In this document: positions 3,061 through 61,865 of the stretch, in pieces
Position numbering within the stretch: position 1 is the first letter of the stretch
Layout: each line of letters begins with the position of its first letter
NCBI GenBank assembly: GCA_017517845.1
Contig: JAFWXW010000026.1
Span: 1-61,942, forward strand
DNA from: Paludibacteraceae bacterium
GTDB taxonomy: Bacteria > Bacteroidota > Bacteroidia > Bacteroidales > Paludibacteraceae
Direction of reading: 5' to 3'
DNA: 61,942 bases
Notes under the pieces: model-generated
What the model was told of the DNA's origin: nothing
Databases searched by the model: none
What the model saw: the letters and a program-made list of their open reading frames with translations, nothing else
Translations under genes and position numbers: made by a program

Positions 3061-3077
3061 TAAAAGATATTGCAAAT

Positions 3078-3223
3078 AAGAGTTTTTTAAAGGAGCAATT
3101 TTTAGGCGTCCCGAAGTCCGAACAACCGGAGTGTACACAAGGTACTCGAGGATTGTGAGGACAAGGGCAACGAGACGTGTTGATGACCAACGGGAATAAA
3201 AGCACCCTTTAAATTGGTTCTTA
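3078..3223 (-). repeat. Dispersed stop-codon-linked structured element, copy A
   Basis: Outer arms 3078-3093 and 3206-3222 are roughly complementary and the right arm includes the stop codon of the PorP gene (3221-3223). The plus-strand core has helix GTCC/GGAC, a GA/GA loop, helix ACAACC/GG(A)TTGT with a bulged A, a GGAG/CGA loop, and helix GTAC/GTAC closing a 5-nt loop. The terminal blocks AAAGGAG-ATTTTTAGGCG and CACCCTTTAAA recur in the other copies. It separates the PorP operon from the SPOR-gldB unit, which has its own promoter. The block GTTGATGACC-A-GGGAATAA near 3179-3199 recurs at 43915-43938. Confidence 0.85.
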
Positions 3224-4171
3224 CCATACTACAGGCTTTGTTGTTGGTATTACAAACGACAACATCACTTCATGAGTACTTGAAGTATAGTTCCATACAG
3301 GACCAACACTTAGGTCGTAGCAGTAACCAACACGAAGCCAGTGCCATTCAAAACCTGCCATGAAACTTACTGCACTATTTACACGATAACCTACACCTAA
3401 CCAATATTTTCCATCGTATAGGGCGGTAAGGCTCACATCTACTAGGTGTTCTTGACCCAATTTAATAAGTTCTGAATTTTCTCCAGAGATTAACTCACCT
3501 GTGTTACATGCACCTATGTTGGTATATGCCACTGCAGGGATTAAATTAAATTTCTCTGGAAGTGGAGCATTACCACGTAGATACACATTGATATGTGAAG
3601 GTGCTGCGGTGGTACGAACATCAGAAGTTATACTAGGTAGGTGAGTAATAGAAGCACCTACTAATAAATATTTGTAAGAAAATTCCAAACCAAAATCTAA
3701 GTCGAATGCGGTGGTATTAGTTTTTTCTGAACCAGCAAGTGGGTCACCGTTATCACGCCAAACATGACGTTCGGGGTCGAACATTTTGTTTACTACACCA
3801 GCAGACAAACCTAATGAAAGCAGACCACCTTCAAATAGGTCTATGTTATAGGCATAACAGATTTTAGCATTGATGGTTTGATTATACAAACCTAACTCAT
3901 CGTATGAAAATGATAAACCAAAACCAGATTTTAGTTTTTCATTGTAATAGTGACCATTTAATAGGGCTGTGGTAGGAGTTTGTTCCAATCCCATACCAAC
4001 GTATTGCATACGTCCTGCTGTAAAGATTTGGATTTTCTCGTTATTGCCTATTGCAGCAGGGTTTTGATTAATACGAGAAAACATTTGCTCAGAAAGCTTA
4101 AAATCGCCCTGTGCAAATAGAGCTGTGCACGCTAATAGGAATACACTGATTAATAATATTACTTTTCTCAT
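3221..4171 (-). CDS. PorP/SprF family T9SS outer-membrane protein
   Basis: 316 aa. Type I signal peptide (MRKVILLISVFLLACTALFAQ) then a beta-barrel-like protein with the opening typical of PorP/SprF: LSEQMFSRINQNPAAIG near residues 26-42, TTALLNGHYY, and alternating hydrophobic strands ending in an aromatic-rich C-terminus. In Flavobacterium and Porphyromonas such proteins work with T9SS to bring a cognate large substrate to the surface. Here it is the last gene of a three-gene unit (type B CTD protein, OmpA protein, PorP), 5 bp after the OmpA gene, so its likely client is the large protein encoded at 5719-9969. The stop codon lies inside the base stem of repeat copy A. Confidence 0.85.
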   Translation of the reverse strand: MRKVILLISVFLLACTALFAQGDFKLSEQMFSRINQNPAAIGNNEKIQIFTAGRMQYVGMGLEQTPTTALLNGHYYNEKLKSGFGLSFSYDELGLYNQTINAKICYAYNIDLFEGGLLSLGLSAGVVNKMFDPERHVWRDNGDPLAGSEKTNTTAFDLDFGLEFSYKYLLVGASITHLPSITSDVRTTAAPSHINVYLRGNAPLPEKFNLIPAVAYTNIGACNTGELISGENSELIKLGQEHLVDVSLTALYDGKYWLGVGYRVNSAVSFMAGFEWHWLRVGYCYDLSVGPVWNYTSSTHEVMLSFVIPTTKPVVW

Positions 4172-10063: not shown

Positions 10064-10474
10064 ATGAAAAAATTAGATTTTAACATTTTAGGTCCTATAG
10101 GAGAAGGTATATATAAGGAGAAAGGAAGTAAATTTATAGGGTACGCTATGTACGTAGATAGTACTGATAAGGTAAAAGAAATTGTAAACGCTTATAAGAA
10201 AGAACATCATAAAGCAAGACACGTATGTTATGCCTACAAAATAGGTAATGAAATTCGTGCTAATGACAATGGCGAGCCTTCTGGTACTGCAGGCAGACCT
10301 ATACTTCGTCAGATAGAGGCATCTGGAAAAGAAAACCTACTTGTAGTAGTAGTTAGATACTTCGGAGGCACTCTTCTAGGCACAGGAGGACTTATTAATG
10401 CGTATAAAGAAGCATCGAGGGAAGCGATACAACAGTTAGGAGTGAGGAGTGAGGAGTTAGGAGTTAGGAGTTAG
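10064..10474 (+). CDS. YigZ/IMPACT-family protein, shortened C-terminus
   Basis: 136 aa. The N-terminal UPF0029/IMPACT fold is well preserved: KEKGSKFIGYAMYV near residue 20, EHHKARHVCYAYKI, NDNGEPSGTAGRPIL and VVVRYFGGTLLGTGGL. The family's biochemical role in bacteria is not settled; the eukaryotic relative IMPACT binds GCN1. Full-length bacterial YigZ proteins are about 200 aa and carry a C-terminal DUF1949 domain. Here the protein ends right after the first domain: residues 124-136 (QLGVRSEELGVRS) are encoded by a heptamer repeat array, and the TAG stop lies inside that array. The second domain therefore seems lost or never present. It converges on the DUF4270 gene. Confidence 0.8.
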   Translation: MKKLDFNILGPIGEGIYKEKGSKFIGYAMYVDSTDKVKEIVNAYKKEHHKARHVCYAYKIGNEIRANDNGEPSGTAGRPILRQIEASGKENLLVVVVRYFGGTLLGTGGLINAYKEASREAIQQLGVRSEELGVRS

Positions 10475-10489
10475 GAGTGAGGAGTGAGA
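10434..10489 (+). repeat. Heptamer tandem array (8 units)
   Basis: Eight consecutive 7-bp units, AGTTAGG or AGTGAGG. The third and fourth bases of the units read TT, TG, TG, TT, TT, TT, TG, TG (the last unit ends in A). The array starts within codon 124 of the YigZ-like gene and supplies its stop codon at 10472-10474. Confidence 0.95.
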
Positions 10490-10505
10490 AGAAAATTATT
10501 TTTTT

Positions 10506-10630
10506 ATTTGAGTTGAATAAAAAGATGTTATTCAAGGCTTGCGTAGCCTGAAAAACCGGAGTTTACTAATGGTAAATGAGGATTTGAAGGCAAGCGTAAC
10601 GCAGAAGAACGCTTTTTATTCAGCTCAAAT
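10506..10630 (-). repeat. Dispersed structured element, copy B (variant ends)
   Basis: Outer arms 10506-10524 and 10612-10630 pair over 19 bp with a single U-G wobble on the plus strand. The core follows the family: GCCT/AGGC, GA/GA loop, AAAACC/GG(A)TTT, GGAG/TGA loop, TTTAC/GTAAA. It lacks the AAAGGAG-ATTTTTAGGCG end block and instead has a TTGAATAA/TTATTCAA hairpin (10514-10536), which recurs in part at 44105-44126. It lies 2 bp from the DUF4270 stop codon. Confidence 0.85.
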
Positions 10631-10632
10631 TT

Positions 10633-11967
10633 TTATAGTTTTGTGTATGTTATACTCAATCTCATATTAGACTTCTCATTCTGAGGACTACGAAGTCTAA
10701 CACCAGAAGGTCTAAACTGGTGACGAATCACAGCATCTGTTCCCTCAATGTCTGTAACACCTGTTACAGGCAAAACATAAAAAGGATTAATTTCATCTTC
10801 TTCCAACCCTTCATATAGAATAGTATGTAGATAATCCGCTAAATTATTAAACCTATAAGCTCTTATATCCTTTTCATACACACCTAAAACAGTATTAATA
10901 CCTTCTGCAGGATACAAACTCTGAGTAAAGAATTTATCTATATCAGCTTCTCTTATTAGTATCACATAAGGAGGAACATCTAACTCTGTCAAAGTACTAT
11001 CAGCACATAAAGCCTCTTCTAAAATTAAAGACATATTATTTATGCTAATAATATCACCTTTATTAAAACCTAATTTTTCTCTAATTCTATCTATAGGCAA
11101 TTCTATTTTGGGAACTAAACCCAAATATGAAGAAAGATATATTAAACTATCTGGAATATTTTCTAAATTTGGAGTTTTTACTTCAGAAATTCTTAAAACA
11201 CCTGTTGTTTCCTTATTTAATGGGTAAATACGCACATCACTAACTAAAGAATCTGGTTTAGAAGCATCGGGGATATAATCGTATGAAACTTCCAAATTTA
11301 CAGAATCTACATCTAAAACTACCTGACCTTTATATTCATTGGTAACAAATACACCTTTAATAAAATTCAAGAAATTACTTTGGCTTTGAGTCAAACTTCT
11401 ATCAGCGATAAGAGTTTCTGCCATTGCTATTGGCAAATCTACTTTAACAGTATTACAGAAATCAGGTTCTTCTTTTAGAGAATCTGGAATAGTAGGGTCA
11501 TATGCAACATATACTTTTTTCCCTAAAACAACAGATTTATCACAAAATTCCTCTACATTAATATCGCTAGTATAATTCTCTTCAAATAATAAAGGTTTAT
11601 TTAACTGATAAACAGCAGCTTCTTGAACAGCAGTTGAATCTCCAAAAAATGTTTTATAGTAAAGTACCACTTGAATAGACTTTGCTTTTGCGGTACTAGG
11701 GAAGTCTGCATTTATATATCTAAACTCTGCTAAAAAATCAAATTTTGAAGAACCATATATAGGATCATCATATTTTCCTAAGAAAAGTTTGTCAGACTCT
11801 GAATACCTTTTAGAAACTAATTCAGAAATTGCCGAAACAGAAAAAGAATCTGTTTTAACTGACAATTTATCTTCTGTGGGTTGGATTTCTGTACCTATCT
11901 CATTTGCTTCACAAGCAATAAGTAATAAAGAAGTAAGGAATAATATTATCCCAGTCCAATTTTTCAT
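10633..11967 (-). CDS. DUF4270 family lipoprotein
   Basis: 444 aa. Lipoprotein signal with lipobox LLIAC (Cys19). The mature protein begins with the conserved DUF4270 pattern (EIGTEIQP, then TDSFSVSAISEL, KLFLGKYDDPIYGSSKFDFLAEF) and continues with beta-rich segments to the end (RLRSPQNEKSNMRLSITYTKL). DUF4270 proteins are common in Bacteroidetes; no biochemical function is known. It lies 7 bp downstream of the GT5 gene on the same strand, an arrangement I recall from other Bacteroidales, where both genes sit next to panC. It converges with the YigZ-like gene, with repeat copy B between them. Confidence 0.8.
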   Translation of the reverse strand: MKNWTGIILFLTSLLLIACEANEIGTEIQPTEDKLSVKTDSFSVSAISELVSKRYSESDKLFLGKYDDPIYGSSKFDFLAEFRYINADFPSTAKAKSIQVVLYYKTFFGDSTAVQEAAVYQLNKPLLFEENYTSDINVEEFCDKSVVLGKKVYVAYDPTIPDSLKEEPDFCNTVKVDLPIAMAETLIADRSLTQSQSNFLNFIKGVFVTNEYKGQVVLDVDSVNLEVSYDYIPDASKPDSLVSDVRIYPLNKETTGVLRISEVKTPNLENIPDSLIYLSSYLGLVPKIELPIDRIREKLGFNKGDIISINNMSLILEEALCADSTLTELDVPPYVILIREADIDKFFTQSLYPAEGINTVLGVYEKDIRAYRFNNLADYLHTILYEGLEEDEINPFYVLPVTGVTDIEGTDAVIRHQFRPSGVRLRSPQNEKSNMRLSITYTKL

Positions 11968-15705: not shown

Positions 15706-15717
15706 AATATCTCATCA

Positions 15718-15841
15718 AAGAGTGAGAGCAAAAGGAGGGATTTTTAGGCGTCACGAAGTCCGAAAAACCGGAGTGTACAAGTAGTACTCGAGGATTTTGA
15801 GGACGAGGGCAACGAAGAAAGCACCCTTTTGAATCACTCTT
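15718..15841 (-). repeat. Dispersed structured element, copy C
   Basis: A perfect 8-bp base stem AAGAGTGA/TCACTCTT (15718-15725, 15834-15841) overlaps the TlpA-like stop codon (15840-15842). The core is the clearest of all copies: GTCC/GGAC, GA/GA, AAAACC/GG(A)TTTT, GGAG/CGA, GTAC/GTAC with loop AAGTA. Terminal blocks AAAGGAGGGATTTTTAGGCG and CACCCTTTT are present. Confidence 0.88.
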
Positions 15842-16931
15842 ATTTCAACACTTCTGAAAGTTTACTTATAAGTGCCTCTCCTCGTAGTGAAGTAGCAATG
15901 ATTTTACCAGATTTATCTATAAGTACAGAATAAGGTATTCCTTTCACACCATATGATTTGGCCACAGGACAATTCCATTTCATAAGTGAACTTACATGAT
16001 TTGGCCATACCAATCCATCTGCTTGAATAGCATTTTTCCATGCAGATACATCAGAATCCAAAGACACACTATACACTGTGAAACCTTTGTCCTTGAACAT
16101 ATTATAAGCCATAACCACATTTGGATTTTCCATTCTACAAGGACGACACCAAGACGCCCAAAAATCTATTAACACCACTTTGCCCTTGAGAGAAGATAAT
16201 TTAATGGTCTGACCATTTATACTAGGAAGTTCTATATCTGGAGCCACTTTACCCACTTGAATAGGATTATCTACTATATAGCCTATTTCCTTGATTATAG
16301 GATTGTTTGGGTATTTATTTTTTTGTTTAGAATAAATTAGTTTAAATAATTCTAGACTAGATTCTGCCTGATTTGAAAAATCTACGTATGCCATTAAGGC
16401 AGCCGCCAACAATTCTGAATTTGAAGAAATATTACCTATAAGTTTACCCTGGAAGGTAATATATTCATTATTAAACTGTTGCTGAATGGCAAGTTTTTCA
16501 TTGTCATCTTTGGATACCTTATACTTTTCGTCTAGTGCCATCAATTTGGCAGACACCTTCAATGTTTCTGTTTGGTATTTATGAATAAATTCCATATCCT
16601 TAGAACCTGCAGTAGAGCTTATAGTAAGATTTTTATCATAAACCATTTCTACATTTTCATTTGGAAGAAGAACTACATAACTAGGAATTTTTCTACCATT
16701 ATTTAATACCATTACTATAGAGTATATTTCTCCAGACTTTATATCATCAGAAAAAGAAAATGTTCCTTCTGGACTAACCACTGCAGTAGATAGAAAATCT
16801 AAACCAGTATTAGTCAATTTCTGAACATTTACACTACTAACTACAGTAGTACCCTCTATTCTACCATTAAATGTACTCGCCACAATGGCAATAGGCATAA
16901 ACAAAGACAATAATAAAACTAATTTTTTCAT
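15840..16931 (-). CDS. TlpA/ResA-like thiol-disulfide oxidoreductase with DUF4369-type N-terminus
   Basis: 363 aa. Type I signal peptide (MKKLVLLLSLFMPIAIVAS). Residues about 20-120 resemble DUF4369, a beta-rich domain seen before Bacteroidetes thioredoxins (FNGRIEGTTVV, YSIVMVLNNGRKI); a helical segment follows (about 125-215). Residues about 225-363 are a TlpA/AhpC-TSA thioredoxin domain with the redox motif WASWCRPC (Cys262, Cys265) and cis-proline in KGIPYSVLIDKSGKI. It should act in the periplasm, probably reducing disulfides. Its start overlaps the queA stop by 4 bp, so it is the last gene of the efflux-queA unit. Confidence 0.85.
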   Translation of the reverse strand: MKKLVLLLSLFMPIAIVASTFNGRIEGTTVVSSVNVQKLTNTGLDFLSTAVVSPEGTFSFSDDIKSGEIYSIVMVLNNGRKIPSYVVLLPNENVEMVYDKNLTISSTAGSKDMEFIHKYQTETLKVSAKLMALDEKYKVSKDDNEKLAIQQQFNNEYITFQGKLIGNISSNSELLAAALMAYVDFSNQAESSLELFKLIYSKQKNKYPNNPIIKEIGYIVDNPIQVGKVAPDIELPSINGQTIKLSSLKGKVVLIDFWASWCRPCRMENPNVVMAYNMFKDKGFTVYSVSLDSDVSAWKNAIQADGLVWPNHVSSLMKWNCPVAKSYGVKGIPYSVLIDKSGKIIATSLRGEALISKLSEVLK

Positions 16932-26902: not shown

Positions 26903-26982
26903 AGAAATTTATTAGTATATTTGTTGTTAGGCAATTAGGAATATTTAAAAATTTATAAAAACTCTACTTACCTAATAAAAAA

Positions 26983-27012
26983 ACTCCTAACTCCTAACTG
27001 CTAACTCCTAAC
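26983..27012 (-). repeat. Heptamer array upstream of the YtxH operon
   Basis: About four units of the complementary form (ACTCCTA, one variant ACTGCTA). A weaker plus-strand pair of units lies at about 26929-26941, so the stretch could fold into a loose hairpin. Confidence 0.85.
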
Positions 27013-27019
27013 TTTTTAT

Positions 27020-27027
27020 TATATTTG
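27020..27027 (+). promoter_or_regulatory. -7 promoter box of the YtxH operon
   Basis: TATATTTG, 59 bp upstream of the YtxH start and directly after the heptamer array. A second TATATTTG occurs at 26916-26923. Confidence 0.45.
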
Positions 27028-46431: not shown

Positions 46432-49188
46432 ATGGAATATAATTTTAAAAGTATCGAACAAAAATGGCAGTCATATTGGAAAGAAAATGCCATTTATCGT
46501 GTAGAGACAGATAAAAGTAAACCTAAGTTTTATGTATTGGATATGTTCCCATATCCATCAGGGGCAGGACTTCACGTAGGTCACCCACTAGGTTACATAG
46601 CATCAGATATATATAGCCGCTACAAAAGACTGCAAGGATTTAATGTACTTCACCCAATGGGTTATGATGCATACGGTCTTCCTGCAGAACAATATGCTAT
46701 ACAAACAGGCCAACACCCAGAAATTACTACAAAGAAAAACATCAATCGCTATCGCGAACAATTAGATAAAATAGGTTTCTGCTACGATTGGGACAGAGAG
46801 ATTAAAACCTGTGACCCAGAATATTATAAATGGACTCAATGGGCATTTATAAAGATGTTTGATAGTTGGTATTGCCAAAGAGCAGACGCTGCAAAACCTA
46901 TTAGCATGCTTGTTGACATCTTCAACGAACAAGGTAATGCAAAAGTAAAAGCAGCTTGCACCGAAACTCCTATCTTCACAGCAGAGCAGTGGAAAAGCTA
47001 CGACGAAAAGAAACAACAAGAAATCTTGATGAACTATCGTATAGCATACCTAGCAGACATTAGCGTAAACTGGTGTCCAAAATTGGGTACAGTACTAGCT
47101 AACGATGAGGTAAGTGAAGGTCTTTCTGTGCGTGGTGGTTATCCAGTAGAACAAAAAGTAATGCGTCAATGGAGCTTACGCGTGAGTGCTTACGCACAAC
47201 GTCTTCTTGACGGACTAGATAAACTAGATTGGACTGATTCACTAAAAGAGACACAACGCAACTGGATAGGCAGAAGTGAAGGTGCAGAAATGGACTTTGC
47301 AATAGCAGATAGTGATATCACCATGACTGTCTTCACCACACGTGCAGACACTACATTTGGTGTAACCTTTATGGTATTGGCACCAGAAAGTGACTACGTG
47401 GCACAAATTACCACTGCAGAACAAAAAGCAGAAGTAGAAGCATACCTAGACGCAGTAAAACGCCGTACAGAACGTGAACGTATTTCTGACAGAAAAGTGA
47501 GCGGTGTTTTCTCAGGTGCTTACGCTATCAACCCATTTACAGGAGATAAAATCCCTGTATGGATTTCAGATTATGTACTAGCAGGATATGGTACAGGTGC
47601 CATTATGGCTGTACCAGCACACGATAGCCGCGACTACGCATTTGCTAAACATTTCAACCTACCTATAGTTCCAGTAATAGAAGGTTGCGACGTGAGCGAA
47701 GAAAGTTTTGATGCCAAAGACGGTATCATGTGCAACTCAGGTTTCCTAAACGGACTTCAAGTGAAAGAAGCCATTGCAAAAGCAAAAGTTTATATTGCAG
47801 AAAAAGGTATTGGTAAAGTAAAAGTAAATTATCGTCTTCGTGATGCAATTTTCTCTCGCCAACGTTATTGGGGTGAGCCATTCCCTGTATATTACAAAGA
47901 AGGAATGCCATATACACTAGATATGGACAAACTACCACTTCTTCTTCCAGAAATTAGCACATATCTTCCTACAGAAACAGGCGAACCACCACTAGGACGT
48001 GCCGAAAACTGGAAAACAGAAGATGGTTACCCACTAGAACTTAACACAATGCCAGGTTTTGCAGGTTCTTCTGCATATTACCTACGCTATATGGACCCAC
48101 GCAACAACGAAGCACTTGTTAGCCAAGAGGCAAACGAATATTGGCAAAACGTCGATCTTTACATAGGCGGAACAGAACACGCCACAGGTCACCTTATCTA
48201 TAGCCGTTTCTGGAATAAATTCTTATTTGACCTAGGTCTAATATGCAAAGACGAACCATTCCAAAAACTTATCAACCAAGGTATGATTCAAGGTCGTTCA
48301 AACTTTGTTTATCGTGTTATCGGTACAAATCAGTTCGTTTCATACGGTCTAAAAGACCAATATAAAACACAAGAAATCCACGTAGATGTAAACATTGTTT
48401 CAAACGATATTCTAGACCTAGACAAATTCCGTGCATGGATGCCAGATTTTGCAAACGCAGAATTTATCCTAGAAGACGGAAAATATATTTGCGGTTGGGC
48501 AGTAGAAAAAATGTCAAAATCTATGTTCAACGTGGTAAACCCAGACGATATTGTAGAAAACTATGGTGCAGATACACTTCGTCTATATGAAATGTTCCTT
48601 GGACCTCTAGAACAATCTAAACCATGGGATACAAATGGTATCGACGGTGTTCATCGTTTCTTAAAACGTCTATGGGGATTGTTCTACAAAGGTGACGATG
48701 TGAACGTTTCAGACGCAGAACCTACTGCAGAAGAATATAAAACACTTCACAAGACCATTAAAAAAGTAACAAGTGATATAGAAAACTTCTCATTCAACAC
48801 CGCAATCTCAGCATTTATGATTTGCGTGAATGAGTTAAATTCTGCAAAATGTAATAAACGTGCCATTCTAGAGCCACTTGTAGTGCTTCTAGCACCATTT
48901 GCACCACACGTAGCAGAAGAATTATATCACGTATTAGGCAATGAAGGTACAGTTTGTGATGCAGCTTTCCCTAAACATGATGAAAAATATCTAGCAGAAA
49001 ACACTGTTAAATATCCTATTTCATTCAATGGTAAAGTACGCTTCACTCTAGAACTTGCAGCAGACCTTAATCCAAAACAAGTGGAAGAAATTGCACTTGC
49101 AAATGAACAAACTGCAAAATACTTAGATGGCAAGGCGATTAAGAAGGTTATCGTAGTGCCTAAAAAAATTGTAAACATAGTAATTTAA
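46432..49188 (+). CDS. leuS: Leucyl-tRNA synthetase
   Basis: 918 aa. A class I aminoacyl-tRNA synthetase that charges tRNA-Leu. Key sites: HVGH (residues 48-51), [15 protein letters not shown], a CP1 editing domain with [20 protein letters not shown] (the T-rich editing loop) and [21 protein letters not shown], and KMSKS (693-697). The C-terminal anticodon-binding region and the final domain, ending [15 protein letters not shown], are complete. It is longer than the E. coli enzyme (860 aa), including an insertion near residues 160-210, a feature I associate with Bacteroidetes. Its TAA stop forms the base of repeat copy D. Confidence 0.95.
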
Positions 49189-49309
49189 GAATGTTTTTAA
49201 AGGGTGATTTTTACGTTGCCCTCGTCTTCGAAATCCTCATTTACGTCAGTAAACTCCGGTTTCTCAGACTTCGGGACGCCTTAAACTCCCTCCTTTAAAA
49301 TTCATTCTT
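49187..49309 (+). repeat. Dispersed structured element, copy D (opposite orientation)
   Basis: The base stem AAGAATG/CATTCTT (49187-49193, 49303-49309) uses the A residues of the leuS stop codon. Read on the minus strand the core is GTCT/AGAC, GA/GA, GAAACC/GG(A)TTTC, GGAG/TGA, TTTAC/GTAAA with loop TGAC. Both core helices differ from other copies yet pair perfectly. Because leuS is on the plus strand, the orientation relative to its gene is the same as in all other copies. Confidence 0.88.
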
Positions 49310-49353
49310 ACTAAAAGCAATTGGGATAACTCCTAACTTCTAATTAATATTAG

Positions 49354-51877: not shown

Positions 51878-53133
51878 AAAAGAGAAGCTATTTTATTTGC
51901 CAAAGCCTCACGAGAATAAGATTTAATATTATCATTTCCCGAATATGGCTTATTAAGAAATTCATCTAAGTTGAAACCATCAGAATAACACTCACCAGCA
52001 GAACATTCATTAATCAGACGCATAGCATCACCATTTTGTGGGCCAAAAAGAAGTATCTTATTGCCTGCTGCAAGATATTCAAATAGTTTACCTGTTAATA
52101 TACCTTCATTATTAGGCACATTTGGAATAAATAGTAGCAAAACATCAGATGCCTGCATATAAGAGACAGCCTCTTTGTGAGAAACATACGAAACAAACTC
52201 AGTTTGTACACCCCAAGACTTTATCTCTTTTTGTATTTCATCACTCACCACACCTACAAATCGTAGCAAAATGTCTTTTCTACCTTGCACAAGAGATTTT
52301 AAAGGTTCTAAATCATATTGCGGAGCCCAAACTCCAACATAAGTAAAATAGTTAGGAGTGAGGAGTGAGGAGTTAGGAGTTATTTTTTCTTTCTTATTTA
52401 TTATAGTTGAATTAATAAAGTCCTTTGTATCATAACCATTAGGGACGACAGCAATTTTTTCTGCTACGTCTGCTTTTTGGGCAAAAAGACGACGGCACTC
52501 TTCACTAACTGTGATTATTTGGTCTGCACCAAGCAAGACAGAACTTTCGTAACGCAGATTACGTTTCTTTGCCCAACGTGTAGGATAAAGATCTTGATTA
52601 TAATAAATATCAGTCCAAGGGTCACGAAGGTCTGCCACCCATCTGATATGCGGATATAAGCGTTTAAGTTCCAAACCTATAAGTTGTGTAGAATGAGGCG
52701 GAGAAGTAGTCACTATGGTAGTTATTCCTTCGGTTTCTATTATCTCCTTGGCCTTTGCCAACGCAAACTTGTTCCAACCACGACGAGGGTCTGGAAGAAA
52801 AAAATTACCTCTTACAAAACGAGAAATTTTCTGCATCAGATTAGGTTTGGGTTCATTTGCAAACCCACCATATGGAATTTCATTCTTTGGAGATACCTTT
52901 TTATACAAAGAGAGTATTTCTCTAGTTTTGGTTCTATAAACCTTTATATTACTAGGAATATCATTACACAAACTTTCATCTATCTGTGGATACGAAGCCA
53001 CTGTAGGATCTACAGTAAGCACTATAGTCTCTACTCCTGCTTGAGGCAGATAGTTTATAGTTTTCAACCAACGTTGCACCCCAGCTCCCCCACTCGGCGG
53101 AAAATAATATGTAATGAGAAGTATCTTTTTCAC
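51874..53133 (-). CDS. Glycosyltransferase (GT4-like), interrupted by heptamer repeat
   Basis: 419 aa from a GTG at 53133, which gives the usual start MKKILLITYYFPPSGGAGVQ. A GTG 21 bp further upstream is in frame but overlaps a promoter-like box. Motifs: PPSGGAGVQRWLKTINYL, RWVADLRDPWTDIYY, TVSEECRRLF, YVGVWAPQYDLEPL, ASDVLLLFIPNV and ILTGKLFEYLAAGNKILLFG. Between the first and second halves, residues about 252-262 (ITPNSSLLTPN) are encoded by heptamer repeats. They would sit on a linker between the two Rossmann domains, so the enzyme may still work. It is the first gene of the two-gene glycosyltransferase unit, divergent from mntA. Confidence 0.83.
   Translation of the reverse strand: MKKILLITYYFPPSGGAGVQRWLKTINYLPQAGVETIVLTVDPTVASYPQIDESLCNDIPSNIKVYRTKTREILSLYKKVSPKNEIPYGGFANEPKPNLMQKISRFVRGNFFLPDPRRGWNKFALAKAKEIIETEGITTIVTTSPPHSTQLIGLELKRLYPHIRWVADLRDPWTDIYYNQDLYPTRWAKKRNLRYESSVLLGADQIITVSEECRRLFAQKADVAEKIAVVPNGYDTKDFINSTIINKKEKITPNSSLLTPNYFTYVGVWAPQYDLEPLKSLVQGRKDILLRFVGVVSDEIQKEIKSWGVQTEFVSYVSHKEAVSYMQASDVLLLFIPNVPNNEGILTGKLFEYLAAGNKILLFGPQNGDAMRLINECSAGECYSDGFNLDEFLNKPYSGNDNIKSYSREALANKIASLL
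52350..52380 (+). repeat. Heptamer array inside the glycosyltransferase gene
   Basis: Four full units plus 3 bp; variant order TT, TG, TG, TT, the same as the first four units at 10434. On the coding (minus) strand it stays open and encodes a Thr/Pro/Ser/Leu/Asn-rich loop. Confidence 0.93.
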
Positions 53134-54770: not shown

Positions 54771-54842
54771 AATAAATAAGTTTTTAGTTAAACAAATAAG
54801 TGAATTGTATTGATTTAAGTTTTAATATACTTCTAATATACT

Positions 54843-54918
54843 AAGAGTGATTTTTTAAGGAGTGATTTTTAGGCGTTCATTTTATAGAACGCCAAAAGCG
54901 CCCTTAAAAAACGCTCTT
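54843..54918 (-). repeat. Miniature structured element, copy F
   Basis: A nested hairpin without the core. The base stem is AAGAGTG/CGCTCTT, then TTTTTTAAGG/CCTTAAAAAA; inside is GGCGTTC/GAACGCC (54872-54878, 54887-54893) around an 8-nt loop. It keeps the end blocks GGAG-GATTTTTAGGCG and GCGCCCTTAAA. It starts 3 bp after the stop codon of the gene at 54922. Confidence 0.85.
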
Positions 54919-54921
54919 ATT

Positions 54922-55914
54922 TTACCAAATTTTTATCTCATCATACTGTGTAGAGAAACCTTGGAACTTAACAACACGTTTATTGCCGCTTTCCACAGCT
55001 TCTGCACTATCTTTGTAATAGTATAGATATTCTATTTTGTCTCCATCTACTGCAGTAGGAGCAACATGGAATGTCCAGCTATTGTTTCCTGCATCTACCA
55101 TGCGAGAATATCCCCAGTTGTTGAAGTTACCAGAAACATAAACTTCACTTGTGCTACGTGGCACAGTTACATTAAGTGTCATATCACCCCAATAATCTAC
55201 AACATCGTTTACTACAGAACGAGAACCCAATGGACGGTGATTGAAACGATATTCTGATTGGTCGGTACGTGGTCCCCAAACATATAAGTAGTGTAAATTT
55301 GCAGGAACGTTCTTCAATGTACCAGAGAAGTGTGTTTCATCTACTTTTTTAAGTTGTAGTTTAGAATCTGCGTGTTTCCAATACAATGGATCACCTTCTT
55401 CACCAAATGTACCTGCTACCCATACTTCTTTTGTACCTGCAGGCACTTGAACTGTAAATTTAACAGTACCAGTGAATTTTTCTTTTTTCTTAGAATCTGT
55501 ATAAATAGCTACGTATTTATCATCTGTTTGGTTTTTATCGTTCTTTAAGATTACAAAAAGACCAGAAACATGTGGAACTTCTTCATCTGTAAGTCCGAAA
55601 TATGATTTAATATTAGAAATGGTATAAGTTAAAGTTCCATTAGATTTTTTTGTCCATTTGAAACTTTTTGTGTTACACTTAGACCAAGGTGCTTTTTCTT
55701 TTGCCCATTCGCCATTTTTATCTAACTCTAGACATGTATAAATAAACACGTCTTCTGTTGACATCCAATTCTGTTTGGCAGATGGTGTGTAAGTTAATAC
55801 AATAGCTCCATCTGGACTTGGAGTCTCTGGAGTCACGGTTAATTCACCAGCAAACACAGAAAGTGATAGTACTGATAGAACTAGAGCCATAAATGCAGTG
55901 TAGATCTTTTTCAT
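54922..55914 (-). CDS. Secreted protein with two carbohydrate-binding-like (CBM20/48-type) modules
   Basis: 330 aa. Signal peptide (MKKIYTAFMALVLSVLSLSVFA). Residues about 24-140 form an Ig-like N-terminal part of unknown type (PDGAIVLTYTPSAKQNW). Two beta-sandwich modules follow, each resembling starch- or glycogen-binding CBM20/CBM48: about 147-245 (VKFTVQVPAGTKEVWVAGTF, SGTLKNVP, YLYVWGPR) and about 247-330 (TLNVTVPRSTSEVYVSGNFN, WTFHVAP, EYLYYY). No catalytic domain is seen. It may bind glucans and bring them to the cell. It has its own promoter box at 55943 and ends at miniature repeat F. Confidence 0.68.
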   Translation of the reverse strand: MKKIYTAFMALVLSVLSLSVFAGELTVTPETPSPDGAIVLTYTPSAKQNWMSTEDVFIYTCLELDKNGEWAKEKAPWSKCNTKSFKWTKKSNGTLTYTISNIKSYFGLTDEEVPHVSGLFVILKNDKNQTDDKYVAIYTDSKKKEKFTGTVKFTVQVPAGTKEVWVAGTFGEEGDPLYWKHADSKLQLKKVDETHFSGTLKNVPANLHYLYVWGPRTDQSEYRFNHRPLGSRSVVNDVVDYWGDMTLNVTVPRSTSEVYVSGNFNNWGYSRMVDAGNNSWTFHVAPTAVDGDKIEYLYYYKDSAEAVESGNKRVVKFQGFSTQYDEIKIW

Positions 55915-56050: not shown

Positions 56051-56079
56051 GCGGTCACGTGACAAACTTTAGTGACCGC
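56051..56079 (-). terminator. Terminator-like hairpin downstream of carB
   Basis: Stem GCGGTCAC / GTGACCGC (56051-56058, 56072-56079) with a 13-nt loop. On the minus strand it is followed by TTTTTGTATTTTT. It is the second structure after the carB stop, behind repeat copy E. Confidence 0.7.
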
Positions 56080-56121
56080 AATAATTTATGAGTGAGTTTC
56101 TAGACTAGTGACGCCTCCTCT

Positions 56122-56243
56122 AAAATGTATTTTAAGAGAGGGATTTTTAGGCGTCGCGAAGTGTGAACATCCGGAGCTTACTAGAGGTAAGTGAGGAATG
56201 TGAACACAAGTGCAACGAGAAAATCACCACTTAAAATCATTTT
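56122..56243 (-). repeat. Dispersed structured element, copy E
   Basis: The base stem is AAAATG-TATTTTAAG / CTTAAAAT-CATTTT (56122-56136, 56230-56243), overlapping the carB stop codon (56242-56244). The core on the plus strand is GTGT/ACAC, GA/GA, ACATCC/GG(A)ATGT, GGAG/TGA, CTTAC/GTAAG with loop TAGAG. All three core helices differ from copies A to D while keeping pairing. Confidence 0.9.
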
Positions 56244-59200
56244 AGGCTTTATATTCATCCCAAGATTTGATTGGAATTTCACTCTCTTTCACTGTGCAGA
56301 ACGCGTGAATGAAAGCAGATGCCAAACGAGCATTGGTTAGCAATGGAATATTGTGGTCGATAGCAGCACGACGTATTTTATAACCATTGGTAAGTTCGCG
56401 ACGAGTTTGGTTTTTAGGAATATTGATAACAAGGTCAAATTGTTTACCTGCCATCATATCTGTAATTTTTAGTTCGCTATTTTCATCGTCTGGCCAGCCT
56501 ACTACTGTTGCGTTGATACCATTTTCTGATAGGAATTTTTGTGTTCCTACGGTAGCATAGATATTGTAACCATTTTTGGCAAGTTCACGACATGGTTCTA
56601 GTAAATCTACTTTTGATTTAGCATCACCAGAAGATACCATGATATTTTTTTCTGGAATAGTAGTACCTACAGCGATAAGTGAGCTTAGAAGAGCTTCGTT
56701 GAAGTCGTCACCTATACAACCTACTTCACCGGTAGAAGCCATATCTACACCCAAGATAGGGTCTGCTTTGTGAAGACGAGCAAATGAGAATTGAGAAGCT
56801 TTCACACCGATATGTTCGATATCGAATACAGATTTGTCTGGTTTAGAGTATTCTGCACCTAGCATAATGCGTGTTGCTGTTTCGATAAAGTTGCGGTTAA
56901 GCACTTTAGAAACAAATGGGAACGAACGTGAAGCACGTAGGTTACATTCGATTACTTTAATATCGTTGTTTTTAGCTAGGTATTGAATATTGAATGGACC
57001 TGTGATTTGAAGAGCTTTTGCAATTTGCTTAGAAATTTTCTTCACACGACGCATTGTTTCAAAATAGATATTTTGTGCTGGGAATACTAGAGTAGCATCA
57101 CCAGAGTGAACACCAGCAAACTCAACGTGTTCAGAAATTGCATATTCTACTACTTCACCGTCTTTTGCTACAGCGTCGAACTCAATTTCTTTTGCATTTT
57201 GAAGGAATTGAGATACAACTACTGGGTGTTCTTTAGACACTTGAGCAGCAAGAGAAAGGAATGCATGTACTTGTTCTTTGTCGTAGCAAACATTCATAGC
57301 CGCACCAGAAAGTACGTAAGAAGGTCTGATAAGTACCGGGAATCCAACTTCTGCTATAAATTCATCTATATCATCAAAGCTGGTCAATTCTCTCCAACGT
57401 GGTTGGTCTATGCCTAAGCTGTCTAACATAGCAGAGAATTTGTGGCGGTCTTCTGCACGGTCTATATTGCAAGCTTTTGTACCAAGAATAGGAACATTTT
57501 GGCGGTCCAACTTCATAGCTAAGTTATTTGGAATTTGACCACCCATAGAAATAATTACACCTTTTGGTGCTTCTAGGTCTAACACGTCTAATACACGTTC
57601 AAATGAAAGTTCATCGAAGTATAGACGGTCACACATATCATAGTCTGTAGAAACTGTTTCTGGGTTGTAGTTTATCATAACTGATTGATAGCCCAATTTA
57701 CGTGCTGTTTGCACTGCATTTACACTACACCAGTCAAATTCCACAGAAGAACCAATACGATATGCACCTGAACCTAATACCACTATGCTTTCTGAATCTG
57801 CCTTTTTAGGAGTATAAACATTACCTTCTCCGTAGGTTACGTATAGGTAATTTGTTTTTTCTGGATTTTCGGAAGCAACTGTATTAATTCTACATATTTT
57901 TGGAAGAATTTCTAATGATTTTCTGTGTTTACGCACTCTTAGAGTTTCTGCTTCCATATTGCCTTGTGGATTTTCTACATAACGAGCAATTTGGAAGTCT
58001 GAGAAACCAAGTCTCTTAGCTTCTGCCATTACATCTACAGTAAGGTCTTCAATTTTGTTGAATGAAGAAAGCACCAATGTATATTTGTAGATATTTTCAA
58101 GGGCTGTTAGGAACCAAGGGTCAATTTTGGTAAGTTTTTCTATTTGTTCTACTGAATAACCTTGCTCAAATGCGTATGCAATAGCAAAGATACGCATATC
58201 TGTTGGATGAGAAAGTGCATGTTCAATATCATCAAATTTCATATTGTTGCCAACGAAACCGTGCATACCTTGACCAATCATACGAAGACCTTTTTGGATA
58301 ATTTCTTCAAATGATTTACCAATAGACATGATTTCACCTACAGATTTCATAGCAGAACCAATTTCACGGCTCACACCAACGAATTTACCTAAGTCCCAAC
58401 GAGGGATTTTTGCAATGATATAGTCTACAGAAGGTGCTACGTATGCAGAGTTTTTGGTACCCATTTCACCGATTTGGTCTAGTGAGTAACCTAATGCAAG
58501 TTTTGCAGCAACGAATGCTAGTGGATAACCAGAAGCTTTAGATGCTAGAGCAGAAGAACGGCTCAAACGAGCATTGATTTCTATAATACGATAGTCGTTT
58601 GTTTCTGCGTTGAATGCGTATTGAATGTTACATTCACCCACGATACCAATGTGACGAACCACTTTAGTAGCGATATTTTGAAGAAGTTCGATTTGGTCTT
58701 GACGAAGTGAAATAATAGGTGCTACCACAATACTTTCACCTGTGTGAATACCTAGTGGATCGACATTTTCCATAGGAACTACAGTGAAACAGTGGTCGTT
58801 TTTGTCGCGAATTACTTCAAATTCTATTTCTTTCCAACCTTTTAAACTTTCTTCTACTAGAATTTGTTTTGAATATGCCAATGCACTTTCGCAAAGTTCA
58901 ATAAATTCTTTTTCATTAGAACAAACACCAGAACCTAGACCTCCTAATGCGTATGCAGAACGAACCATTACTGGGAAACCTATTCTGCGTGCCACTTCTA
59001 GAGCATCTTCAAGTGACTCTACAGCTTGAGAAACTGGAGTCTTTGCTTCAATTTCGTCTAGTTTTTTCACAAATAAGTCACGGTCTTCTGTAATCATAAT
59101 AGCTTCTACAGAAGTACCTAAAACTTTCACACCATATTCTTTGAGTGTACCGTTTAGATAAAGTTCTGTACCGCAGTTAAGTGCAGTTTGACCACCGAAA

Positions 59201-59457
59201 GCAAGAAGAATACCGTCTGGACGTTCTTTCTTAATAATTTCGGTTACGAAATATGGGGTTACAGGAAGAAAATAAACTCTATCTGCTACACCTTCTGATG
59301 TTTGAATGGTAGCAATATTAGGGTTAATCAACACTGTTTCTATGCCTTCTTCTCGCATAGCTTTTAATGCTTGAGAGCCAGAATAGTCAAATTCACCTGC
59401 TTGACCAATCTTAAGCGCTCCTGAACCTAATAAAATTACTTTTTTACAATTTTCCAT
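56242..59457 (-). CDS. carB: Carbamoyl-phosphate synthase large subunit
   Basis: 1071 aa, the normal length. It makes carbamoyl phosphate from bicarbonate, ammonia (from glutamine via CarA) and two ATP, feeding arginine and pyrimidine synthesis. Two homologous ATP-grasp halves are visible: first VLLGSGALKIGQAGEFDYSG, PVMVRSAYALGGLGSGVC, EINARLSRSSALASKASGYP; second VVLGSGAYRIGSSVEFDWC, PVLIRPSYVLSGAAMNVCYD, ECNLRASRSFPFVSKV. The last 140 residues form the regulatory MGS-like domain (KNGYNIYATVGTQKFLSENG). carA is not adjacent. A 190-nt leader with a small ORF and a terminator precedes the gene. Confidence 0.96.
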   Translation of the reverse strand: MENCKKVILLGSGALKIGQAGEFDYSGSQALKAMREEGIETVLINPNIATIQTSEGVADRVYFLPVTPYFVTEIIKKERPDGILLAFGGQTALNCGTELYLNGTLKEYGVKVLGTSVEAIMITEDRDLFVKKLDEIEAKTPVSQAVESLEDALEVARRIGFPVMVRSAYALGGLGSGVCSNEKEFIELCESALAYSKQILVEESLKGWKEIEFEVIRDKNDHCFTVVPMENVDPLGIHTGESIVVAPIISLRQDQIELLQNIATKVVRHIGIVGECNIQYAFNAETNDYRIIEINARLSRSSALASKASGYPLAFVAAKLALGYSLDQIGEMGTKNSAYVAPSVDYIIAKIPRWDLGKFVGVSREIGSAMKSVGEIMSIGKSFEEIIQKGLRMIGQGMHGFVGNNMKFDDIEHALSHPTDMRIFAIAYAFEQGYSVEQIEKLTKIDPWFLTALENIYKYTLVLSSFNKIEDLTVDVMAEAKRLGFSDFQIARYVENPQGNMEAETLRVRKHRKSLEILPKICRINTVASENPEKTNYLYVTYGEGNVYTPKKADSESIVVLGSGAYRIGSSVEFDWCSVNAVQTARKLGYQSVMINYNPETVSTDYDMCDRLYFDELSFERVLDVLDLEAPKGVIISMGGQIPNNLAMKLDRQNVPILGTKACNIDRAEDRHKFSAMLDSLGIDQPRWRELTSFDDIDEFIAEVGFPVLIRPSYVLSGAAMNVCYDKEQVHAFLSLAAQVSKEHPVVVSQFLQNAKEIEFDAVAKDGEVVEYAISEHVEFAGVHSGDATLVFPAQNIYFETMRRVKKISKQIAKALQITGPFNIQYLAKNNDIKVIECNLRASRSFPFVSKVLNRNFIETATRIMLGAEYSKPDKSVFDIEHIGVKASQFSFARLHKADPILGVDMASTGEVGCIGDDFNEALLSSLIAVGTTIPEKNIMVSSGDAKSKVDLLEPCRELAKNGYNIYATVGTQKFLSENGINATVVGWPDDENSELKITDMMAGKQFDLVINIPKNQTRRELTNGYKIRRAAIDHNIPLLTNARLASAFIHAFCTVKESEIPIKSWDEYKA

Positions 59458-59657: not shown

Positions 59658-59706
59658 ATTAAATTATTTGGATTTTCGCAAGAAAATCTCAAATAATTTA
59701 ATTATC

Positions 59707-59779
59707 AGTTAGGAGTGAGGAGTTTGAAGTTAGGAGTTAAAATTCCTAACTCCTAACTCCTAATTCCTAATTCCTAACT
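59707..59779 (-). repeat. Inverted heptamer arrays after the zinc peptidase gene
   Basis: About five AGTTAGG-type units (59707-59738) face about five complementary units (59743-59779), forming a long imperfect hairpin. It starts just past the stop codon of the gene at 59781. It could act as that gene's terminator; no clear T-run follows. Confidence 0.85.
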
Positions 59780-59780
59780 A

Positions 59781-60455
59781 TTAATCTCTTCTTCCTGTTA
59801 ATATAAAAATGTAATATATAAGCGTTGCTAGCGAGCTAAGTGCTGCTACTACGTATGTGTAGGCTGCAGATTTTAGGGCATCTACTGCCATGGTGCGTTT
59901 TTCACCTTGAACCAATCCTGTTCCTGTAAGCCACTGAACTGCACGAGTACTTGCATTGATTTCTACTGGAAGTGTGATAAAACTAAACAATGTGGTAAGT
60001 GCAAAAAGTCCTACTCCCACCTCTAATAATATAGGTGTAGTTTCTATCAGAATAATACCTAAAAGAATCACCCATTGAACATAGTTTGAAGCAAAACTTA
60101 CCACTGGGACCAATGCAGAACGCATCTTAAGCCATGAGTATGAATATGCGTGTTGCACAGCGTGACCACATTCGTGTGCGGCAACAGCAGCGGCAGCCAC
60201 AGAGTTTGACGAGTAAACACCTTCACTTAGGTTTACTGTTTGGTTTGTTGGGTTGTAGTGGTCTGTAAGCATACCAGAGGTTGAAACTACTTTTACATTT
60301 GTAATCCCATGATCACGTAGCATTTTTTCTGCTACTTCTTTCCCTGTCATTCCGTTTGTCATAGGAACTTGGGAATACTTTTTAAATTTACTTTGCAAAC
60401 TTTGTTGCACAATAAAACTTAAAATCGCAATACCGATAAATAAAATCCAATACAT
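59781..60455 (-). CDS. YugP-type neutral zinc metallopeptidase
   Basis: 224 aa, an integral membrane protein of the Zn-dependent peptidase family PF04298. The zinc motif is HECGH (residues 94-98) in VAAHECGHAVQHAYS. Membrane segments: about 2-19 at the N-terminus, and three or four in the C-terminal half (FASNYVQWVILLGIILIE, VGVGLFALTTLFSFITLPV, AAYTYVVAALSSLATLIYY). The region between (LTDHYNPTNQTVNLSEGVY) is conserved in the family. Its substrate is unknown. Heptamer arrays lie both directly after its stop codon and 15 bp before its ATG. Confidence 0.88.
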   Translation of the reverse strand: MYWILFIGIAILSFIVQQSLQSKFKKYSQVPMTNGMTGKEVAEKMLRDHGITNVKVVSTSGMLTDHYNPTNQTVNLSEGVYSSNSVAAAAVAAHECGHAVQHAYSYSWLKMRSALVPVVSFASNYVQWVILLGIILIETTPILLEVGVGLFALTTLFSFITLPVEINASTRAVQWLTGTGLVQGEKRTMAVDALKSAAYTYVVAALSSLATLIYYIFILTGRRD

Positions 60456-60470
60456 AATAATTATATTAAA

Positions 60471-60530
60471 AGTTAGGAGTTAGGAATTAGGAGTTAGGAG
60501 TTTTTCTCCCAAGTCCTTATTCCTAACTCC
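60471..60530 (-). repeat. Inverted heptamer arrays before the zinc peptidase gene
   Basis: A four-unit array (60471-60501) faces a degenerate complementary array (60506-60530). The hairpin ends 15 bp upstream of the ATG at 60455, so it could influence translation of that gene. No promoter box was recognised between purA and this gene. Confidence 0.8.
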
Positions 60531-60545
60531 ACATATTTTTTATAA

Positions 60546-60592
60546 GACTTACTTTTAAAGGAGGGATTTTTAGGCGCCCTTTAAAATAAGTC
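60546..60592 (-). repeat. Micro-sized structured element, copy G
   Basis: Stem GACTTA-C-TTTTAAAGG / CCTTTAAAA-TAAGTC around a loop that keeps the block AGGGATTTTTAGGCG; the core is missing. It lies 4 bp after the purA stop codon (60597-60599) and probably serves as its terminator. Confidence 0.85.
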
Positions 60593-60596
60593 GTCG

Positions 60597-61865
60597 TTAG
60601 ATGTATCTAACAATAGTCTGTTCGCGGTCTGGACCTACAGAAACTATCTTGATAGGAACTTCTAGTTCGTCTTCTAGGAAGTCTAGATATGCGTTAAATG
60701 CTTCTGGGAATTCATCTTCTGATTTCATTTTTGTCATATCTGTTTTCCAACCTGGAAGTTCTTTGTAGATAGGTTCTATGCTATCGTTGATTTCGTATGG
60801 GAAGTAATCAATTTCTTCACCATTGATTCTATAGCCAACACAAGCTTTGATTGTGTCAAAATCGTCTAGCACGTCGCTTTTCATCATAATCAACTTGGTA
60901 ACACCGTTTATCATTACAGAATATTTAAGAGCAACTAGGTCTATCCAACCACAACGACGTTTACGTCCTGTAACTGAACCAAATTCATGTCCTTTTTCAC
61001 ATAATGTATCACCTACCTCATCAAATAATTCACTTGGGAATGGACCTGAACCCACACGTGTACAATATGCTTTGAAGATACCATAAACATCACCTATTTT
61101 ATTAGGTGCAATTCCCATGCCAGTACAAGCTCCGGCACAAATTGTGTTTGATGATGTCACAAAAGGATAAGAACCAAAATCTACATCTAGCATAGTGCCT
61201 TGTGCACCTTCGCAAAGAATAGTTTTGTCTTGTGCAAGTACATCATTTAAATAATGTTCACTATCTATTAATGTGAAATTCTTAAGGTATTCGATACCTT
61301 CTAACCATTGTTTTTCTGCTTCTTCTATATCATATTCAAAGTTCATTGATTTTAACATGAACTCATGACGAGCTTTGGCTGCAGCATATTTTTTGTCAAA
61401 GTCTAACAAAATATCACCTACACGAAGTCCATAACGACCCACTTTGTCTGTATATGTAGGTCCGATACCTTTACCTGTGGTTCCAACTTTTGCATCACCT
61501 TTTGCAGCTTCGTTTGCCGCATCTAACATACGGTGAGTAGGCATAATAAGGTGTGCCTTTTTAGAAATGTATAATTTCTTTGTTAAATCGTGGCCAGATT
61601 TGGCAAGTGCTTCAGCTTCTGCTTTAAATAATGCTGGGTCAAGGACCACACCATTAGATATTACATTGATTTTGTCTCCTTGAAAAATACCAGATGGAAT
61701 GGAACGCAAAACATACTTTTCTCCATTAAACTCTAATGTATGTCCTGCATTAGGACCACCTTGAAAACGTGTTATAACATCATAATTTGGTGTTAATACA
61801 TCAATTACTTTTCCTTTTCCCTCGTCACCCCATTGTAGGCCGAGTAAAACATCTGCTTTTGTCAT
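60597..61865 (-). CDS. purA: Adenylosuccinate synthetase
   Basis: 422 aa, the usual length. It converts IMP, GTP and aspartate to adenylosuccinate, the first committed step to AMP. Motifs: QWGDEGKGK (residues 11-19, with catalytic Asp14), GGPNAGHTLEFNG (His catalytic), TTGKGIGPTYTDKVGR, GAQGTMLDVDFGSYPFVTSS, TRVGSGPFPSE and TGRKRRCGWIDLVAL (IMP- and aspartate-binding arginines). The start codon choice gives MTKADVLLGLQWGDE, as in relatives. The gene appears to stand alone. The right edge of the window begins another heptamer array 56 bp upstream of the start. Confidence 0.96.
   Translation of the reverse strand: MTKADVLLGLQWGDEGKGKVIDVLTPNYDVITRFQGGPNAGHTLEFNGEKYVLRSIPSGIFQGDKINVISNGVVLDPALFKAEAEALAKSGHDLTKKLYISKKAHLIMPTHRMLDAANEAAKGDAKVGTTGKGIGPTYTDKVGRYGLRVGDILLDFDKKYAAAKARHEFMLKSMNFEYDIEEAEKQWLEGIEYLKNFTLIDSEHYLNDVLAQDKTILCEGAQGTMLDVDFGSYPFVTSSNTICAGACTGMGIAPNKIGDVYGIFKAYCTRVGSGPFPSELFDEVGDTLCEKGHEFGSVTGRKRRCGWIDLVALKYSVMINGVTKLIMMKSDVLDDFDTIKACVGYRINGEEIDYFPYEINDSIEPIYKELPGWKTDMTKMKSEDEFPEAFNAYLDFLEDELEVPIKIVSVGPDREQTIVRYI

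Follow-up and report, generated by a model that had tools for sequence, protein, structure and literature searches.

The Element at the Locus

The window, that is, the whole stretch of 61,942 nt of Paludibacteraceae DNA that was analysed, carries a full-length, imperfectly palindromic element (copy E) behind a minus-strand gene that presumably encodes the large subunit of carbamoyl-phosphate synthase. The right arm of copy E contains the stop codon of this gene. Past the element, in the direction of the gene, lies a terminator-like hairpin recognised by eye, and orthologues lacking the element have the stop codon followed by a hairpin like it.

A preliminary description of this DNA had named five dispersed copies with one shared fold. 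All five were found at or within a few bases of where it had placed them, the helices quoted for them are present on reading of the sequence, and the common fold is borne out. Beyond that description, the fold extends into a long outer stem, the outer part of which varies among most copies and stays largely complementary. Two further copies in the window, remnants F and G, are cut down to the lower part of the hairpin, with its top gone. Tandem 7-mers of the GTTAGGA type, in both orientations, are also dispersed in the window (10428-10494, 26980-27022, 52344-52382, 59701-59795 and 60465-60505).

Table 1. Positions in the window of the element copies, the parts of copy E and its surroundings (R1, covariance model of the genus element; R2, cross-phylum core covariance model)
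Feature	Positions	Strand	Basis and remarks
Copy E, full-length ERIC-like element (the feature under study)	56119..56249	+	R1 134.5 bits; R2 65.6 bits
Copy E, core	56149-56221	+	Sequence
Copy E, helix 1	56161-56164/56204-56207	+	Read by hand
Copy E, helix 2	56167-56172/56195-56201	+	Read by hand; bulged A56197
Copy E, apical helix	56176-56181/56187-56192	+	Read by hand
Copy E, GA-rich internal loops	56158-56160/56208-56209, 56165-56166/56202-56203, 56173-56175/56193-56194	+	Read by hand
Copy A, full length	3076..3227	+	R1; 23-nt extra stretch in common with copy at C37:60350
Copy B	10506..10633	+	R1; subfamily with outer stem GAGTTGAATAAAAAG
Copy C, full length	15716..15846	+	R1
Copy D	49182..49311	-	R1; inverted along with its plus-strand gene
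Remnant F	54841..54923	+	R1, E=1.3e-10; outer stem and short inner helix, hairpin top absent
Remnant G	60542..60599	+	R1, E=0.00195; outer stem only
Gene with stop codon (56242-56244) in right arm of copy E	56242..59457	-	Open reading frame
Terminator-like hairpin past copy E	56051..56079	-	By eye

As the preliminary description had proposed, a covariance model was built and searched against the window's own genome (G000; 1.68 Mb in 38 contigs, 81% complete) and its relatives, and further copies were found. This genus model, R1, spans 131 positions and was built from 23 copies of G000. It gives 40 matches at E<=1 in the own genome, 35 of them at 1.3e-10 or better; these comprise 32 matched over their full length, two interrupted by a large insert and a single remnant. 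The genome thus holds 34 copies, including the two with the insert, together with deletion remnants. The element measures ~130 bp in the own genome and roughly 110-165 bp across the wider family. It is short, non-coding and multicopy and has terminal inverted repeats, as a MITE would. A structured insert of ~70 nt with its own hairpin occupies the same apical-hairpin point in L014 (G000:C12), L015 (G000:C16) and L100-L103 (G007). It occurs in copies of different subfamilies and may be a second, nested mobile unit.

Conservation of the Fold

Read from the outside inward, the fold of the reference copy consists of the variable outer stem, TTTTAAAGG/CCTTTAAAA, GTG-a-TTTT/AAAA-g-CAC, CGTCCC/GGGcaACG and the loop GAA/GA, and then helix 1, the loop GA/GA, helix 2 with its bulged A, the loop GGA/GA and a six-pair apical helix. 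The core can be written as GGAG-YTTAC-N-GTAAR-TGA, flanked by AAGGC and AACG(C)AG.

Among the 23 copies from G000, two-sided changes occur in 33 of 47 pairs, a result that none of 500 shuffles reached; 87.6% of the cells pair, compared with 74.9% after shuffling and at most 51.8% with slid partners. A larger set comprises 73 matches from G000 and its genus-mates G005, G007, G009 and G013, the remnant at 54841 included. Here, 37 of the 47 pairs display two-sided changes and 92.0% of the cells are paired. The two-sided cells number 594, against a shuffled mean of 165 (0/500 shuffles reach the result), and the covariation score is 0.477, against 0.161 for shuffled data. Fitting to the model biases this alignment in favour of the fold, and because the sequences are related, the shuffles do not translate into a probability.

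These data support the earlier proposal of selection on a folded nucleic acid. The accompanying statement that every change is matched holds nearly throughout helices 1 and 2, where 7 of 718 cells are unpaired; it fails more often in the outermost stem, which has many more exceptions in the per-pair rows of the 73 matches. The copies largely preserve the bulged A and the GA-rich loops. Two-sided changes maintain a core of helices and GA-rich loops, in which the GGAG/TGA loop sits below a short apical hairpin; they do so within a single genome, across the genus and between phyla.

Folded Strand and Position Relative to Genes

Mismatches offer a view of which strand is folded. Read on the plus strand of copy E, the non-Watson-Crick cells of the 73 matches comprise 177 G.T, 41 A.C, 117 G.A and 16 T.C. 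A single position, G.T in most copies, provides 62 of the G.T cells, and one position (columns 36/183) provides 15 of the A.C cells; helices 1 and 2 alone contain 18 G.T and 2 A.C. The plus strand also folds more stably in 71 of the 73 copies with RNA parameters and in 72 with DNA parameters. Mismatch bias and stability together indicate that foldability is maintained on the strand antisense to the abutting gene, in agreement with the preliminary description, and it is this strand that tolerates the observed mismatches. In the cross-phylum set described below, the strand bias is weak (G.T 21 vs A.C 12). The sequence is compatible with RNA as well as with single-stranded DNA as the folded form.

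Flanks were available for 77 copies of the genus (G000, 35 records for 40 matches; G007, 18 for 22; G009, 18 for 19; G013, 6 for 18). The stop of a minus-strand open reading frame of at least 100 codons falls within -30..+15 of the right end in 64 of them, compared with 2.6% for a random window position; the left end abuts a plus-strand stop in five (random position, 1.9%). Ten copies from G027 and G034, two relatives of the window genus, abut a stop on the right in two cases and on the left in one. In a mixed multi-phylum set of 63 copies, 14 have a stop no more than 6 nt from the left end and 21 have one that close to the right end. By eye, many left flanks of the genus copies hold terminator-like hairpins, and in the copies read, T-runs precede the hairpin and A-runs follow it.

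Evidence for Mobility

At the 3' ends of seven orthologous genes, only one of 40 fetched stretches (L152 ends before the stop, and L165 reaches ~100 nt past it) contains the element, a presence/absence pattern characteristic of a MITE. The single occupied stretch is in G005, and its element differs from that of G000. Most of the sampled orthologous 3' ends hence lack the element, and the empty sites that were read consist of a stop codon, a short gap and, by eye, a terminator-like hairpin. The G000 proteins of four of these genes stop one or two residues short of most orthologues, again as judged by eye. Copies are present in 18 of 61 genomes, the own one included, with up to 56 per genome. 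Within the genus, under the filters of that search, seven of the 16 members have none and G000, with 37, has the most.

The family falls into subfamilies in which differing outer stems and terminal inverted repeats surround one core. Evidence for target duplication comes from two family-mates, G027 and G034, and from the mixed multi-phylum set, that is, from outside the window genus. The ends scarcely vary in G027 and G034 (GGGRACTYCTAAAAA), where an exact 4-bp repeat flanks 12 of 18 end pairs, against a shuffled mean of 1.8 and maximum of 6. In the mixed set, restricted to copies with recognisable ends, such a repeat occurs in 26 of 63 (shuffled mean 8.4, maximum 16); 14 of these 26 are of the form YTRR. 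CTAG, CTAA, TTAA or TTAG stands next to the ends of many proteobacterial copies. In G027, a single set of terminal repeats encloses several different inner sequences (L201, L202, L205, L208, L211, L212), which makes the MITE population of this genome a mixed one with common ends.

A comparison of 14 cross-genome gene pairs in which both members have an element, one of them (26% identical) probably not orthologous, yields two kinds of pairs. In ten, the elements are 53-83% identical, and two of these ten combine the same outer stem with a different core (L094/L110, L097/L107). In the other four (L088/L030, L089/L124, L090/L106, L091/L125), they are 97-99% identical. Beside these four, 7/16, 88/161, 30/45 and 73/130 of the 4-fold codon positions agree (44-67%), and in the adjoining gene, 20 to 30 of 30 bases agree per bin. 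This suggests either constraint in place or recent copying between genomes. Such conservation exceeds what is expected of a resident mobile element and counts against a MITE. At one of these pairs, L091 (G007:C4:3500-6200) and L125 (G013), tandem elements stand behind one gene, with apparently one unit more in G007.

Relatives in Other Phyla

The exact apical-core pattern was found in at least 118 stretches of the genome collection and in five viral contigs. Among the 80 genome matches listed, most are from Pseudomonas; the others are from Halomonas relatives, Nitrosomonadales, Mariprofundales, Alistipes, other Bacteroidota and single other groups. The search pattern itself dictates the apical part, which leaves the flanking helices as the informative ones. 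Of 123 distinct sequences, only 71 have a canonical GA/GA loop; in these, 258 of 284 helix 1 cells pair, compared with a shuffled mean of 160 and maximum of 180. In 48 sequences chosen by hand from 78 diverse ones, 95.6% of the cells pair, in a selection that favours pairing because sequences without typical flanks were left out. These sequences contain 137 two-sided cells against 44 in shuffled data (0/500), and two-sided changes affect 9 of 16 pairs against 7.1, a value reached by 8 of 500 shuffles.

A second covariance model, R2, describes the cross-phylum core and was built without ERIC. It matches 53 of 395 sampled genomes of the window's phylum, the own genome included, and 46 of the 53 belong to one family. 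In the genus of P. xionganensis, it matches 85 of 99 genomes, seven of them with at least 49 matches. A Pseudomonas copy used as query matched 15 plasmid records, with the best place in each unannotated, and gave no match in the phage or E. coli collections. A typed consensus of the window genus gave no match in the plasmids.

Candidate Transposases

A mover was sought in both branches. Among the incomplete Bacteroidales assemblies, PF01609 (DDE_Tnp_1) had no match in G000, G005, G007, G009, G013 or G027 and one match in G034; its absence from six of seven copy-rich genomes speaks against DDE_Tnp_1 as the Bacteroidales mover. No R1 copy was found in 41 transposase loci, and these incomplete assemblies yielded no transposase partner for the Bacteroidales element. 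The reverse transcriptase family PF00078 had no match in the own genome. A search for an autonomous element within G027 ends gave 20 stretches with paired ends, and in the four whose open reading frames were read (L196, L205, L207, L208), no transposase was seen by eye.

The own genome has a single Y1 (IS200-like) transposase gene, of 144 aa, at L027 (G000:C4:8386-11724). It is flanked by different palindromes (GTAGGCAGGTGT...), with which it possibly forms a REP/RAYT pair of its own. As the mover of the element, the Y1 transposase was rejected, as it fails to track copy number and no copy lies near the Y1 loci scanned.

The Pseudomonas branch gave a more specific lead. No pair of IS length was found among 42 matches of one end sequence in P. 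xionganensis, and the open reading frames between two copies in P. oryzihabitans look, by eye, like host genes. A 33-nt end sequence matches 19 plasmid records, and two of the five inspected are annotated with ISPst12, an IS5-like element. ISPst12 has CAGGCCGTTGAAAAA at both ends, with CTAG or TTAG beside, and encodes a transposase with PF05598 and PF01609. Its two copies read did not contain the core motif. By sequence, the Pseudomonas form has its ends in common with this IS5-family element.

Interpretation

The feature is real, structured and, judging from its distribution and ends, mobile. We consider it very likely that it represents one of ~35 own-genome copies of a non-coding imperfect palindrome, an ERIC-like MITE that would be mobilised in trans. 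DDE transposases that recognise the terminal repeats may provide this mobility, and for the Pseudomonas subfamily, the IS5-type transposase of ISPst12 would fit as the mover. Targets of the kind YTAR or TTTA contain or abut TAA or TAG, and an insertion over a stop codon could then restore the stop. Because targets such as CTAG, CTAA, TTAA and TTAG hold TAA or TAG on both strands, restoration could work on either side, which would account for ends that lie in stop codons, sometimes those of both convergent genes. The orientation bias in the window genus is left unexplained by stop restoration. Insertions would survive mainly where they fall between a stop codon and the terminator. Mobilisation most likely requires the folded strand, either as RNA or as single-stranded DNA, and the resident hairpin in the 3' untranslated region might, by analogy with ERIC in Yersinia, alter decay of the upstream mRNA.

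Other explanations have to be weighed against such a MITE. The element could be a functional cis- or trans-acting RNA of the lineage, antisense to the gene and conserved for itself rather than for mobility, which would agree with a fold kept on the antisense strand and with four orthologous copies far more conserved than the neighbouring synonymous sites. We regard this as unlikely, given a copy number between 0 (seven genomes) and 37 among 16 genus members, only 53-83% identity in ten of 14 gene-pair elements, target duplications in relatives, the lack of an Rfam match and, by eye, the terminator-like hairpins in many left flanks. A further role for the resident copies, mainly as bidirectional transcription terminators or 3' mRNA stabilisers, would keep the fold as well and would suit their position at 3' ends and the A- and T-runs that, by eye, flank the hairpin of many Pseudomonas copies. 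This, too, seems a poor prospect: in the genus copies read, a separate terminator-like hairpin follows, the hairpin there has its T-runs in front and its A-runs behind, and the mRNA strand folds less stably.

The covariation could also be a mutational product, with template switching at a quasipalindrome copying one arm onto the other in the absence of selection on the fold. The palindromic arms, and an outer stem that differs among most copies and is yet largely complementary, are what such switching would generate, and it may contribute to the outer stem. Arm correction should, however, remove bulges and mismatched loops, whereas the bulged A and the GA-rich loops have for the most part persisted; it also predicts no strand preference, yet G.T exceeds A.C in the genus, an argument that is weak across phyla. 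As an account of the whole, template switching is thus improbable. By far the least credible is a REP/RAYT-type repeat mobilised by a Y1 tyrosine transposase. The one Y1_Tnp gene of the own genome speaks for it; Y1_Tnp is absent from four copy-rich genus-mates (G005, G007, G009, G013), none of the 30 Y1 loci scanned has an R1 match next to it, and no GT[AG]G foot was noticed.

An ERIC-like MITE moved in trans is therefore the reading we retain. The relatives in Bacteroidota, Pseudomonas, Halomonas and others, with their matched helix changes and swapped ends, make the shape a testable requirement. They also implicate IS5-type transposases as the movers of one branch and suggest why insertions of this kind can end exactly at stop codons. 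More tentatively, and with rather less than an even chance of being right, ERIC might be the enterobacterial branch of a cross-phylum family. The real unit of that family would be the folded core, which a widely conserved factor would recognise as a single strand and which unrelated transposons would exchange between their ends; core and ends would then evolve independently of each other.

Comparison with Known Repeats

Strain typing has relied on ERIC repeats for decades, and we know of no established mover and no reason for their shape. The ERIC primers contain GGAGCTTACAT and AAGTAAGTGA. An ERIC 44-mer is present in 5373 of 5426 E. coli genomes, at a median of five places. Two E. coli ERIC copies were read, and both contain AAGGC, GGAGCTTACATAAGTAAGTGA and AACGCA(A/G)ACGCAG. 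Both are also antisense to a gene that stops within ~10 nt of the right end. R1 scores these copies at 18.3 and 16.1 bits and R2 at 30.1 and 27.5 bits. For comparison, in 46 other stretches (121 kb), known copies score 54.9-76.1 bits with R2 and the best other place 11.8 bits. The R2 alignments to ERIC gap most of helix 2 (two 6-nt gaps), and the match is consequently carried by the apical hairpin together with helix 1 and the end motifs.

ERIC (IRU, RU-1) and the element have the same apical core GGAGCTTAC-N-GTAAGTGA, which is identical in copy E and ERIC save for the loop, with AAGGC to the left and AACGCAG to the right. The genus matches, imperfect palindromes of mostly 127-132 nt, also have the size of ERIC/RU-1 at ~127 bp. 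The preliminary description had recognised no known family and had named a match to a known repeat among the outcomes that would refute its claim. With a core that is that of the ERIC/RU-1 repeats, is also common in Pseudomonas and is present in other phyla, the claim of a new family falls. Rfam searches at gathering score of the window (one tRNA only), eight element loci and two ERIC loci gave no match over the element, and a relaxed search with one copy returned chance-level matches only.

According to the literature, ERIC is a multicopy, intergenic imperfect palindrome of ~127 bp that is classed as a MITE, has its own ends and a TA duplication, is known from Enterobacteriaceae with a variant in Vibrio, and exerts orientation-dependent effects on mRNA decay in Yersinia (PMC2229807, PMC2759123). 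The window family departs from ERIC in its ends, in the matched changes by which its helices vary and, in family-mates, in 4-bp duplications. Since the terminal sequences differ, we place the element in an ERIC-like family, outside ERIC itself. Within the open papers, a weak basis for absence, sequence words of the core and ends retrieved no relevant paper and ISPst12 together with MITE retrieved none; the wording "ERIC-like" led to typing or diversity papers only. In terms of this literature, the range of the family, the covariation and the exchange of ends were not found described.

Several other small repeats offer parallels. ISPst12 carries the same CAGGCCGTTGAAAAA terminal repeat as the Pseudomonas subfamily and a CTAG-type flank; it differs in encoding a transposase and in the core, which was not found in the two copies read. 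As described in its source, MITEPsy1 of Pseudomonas syringae is a 100-nt MITE with IS5-like ends and a 4-nt CTAG or YTAA duplication, for which transposition was shown (PMC3189936). By this description, it would resemble the wider family in MITE size, IS5-like ends and 4-nt duplication. The R178 and R6 repeats of P. fluorescens are described as intergenic, of 101 and 177 bp, with inverted repeats, some of the families in that species being MITE-like and favoured between convergent genes (PMC2718517); on that description, they would resemble the element as intergenic inverted-repeat sequences. YPAL/RU-2, RU-3 and NEMIS/Correia are, again by description, small structured bacterial MITEs like the element (PMC2229807). 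Among these systems, the element represents a cross-phylum, ERIC-like family of structured MITEs, related to a known family and no new kind of RNA.
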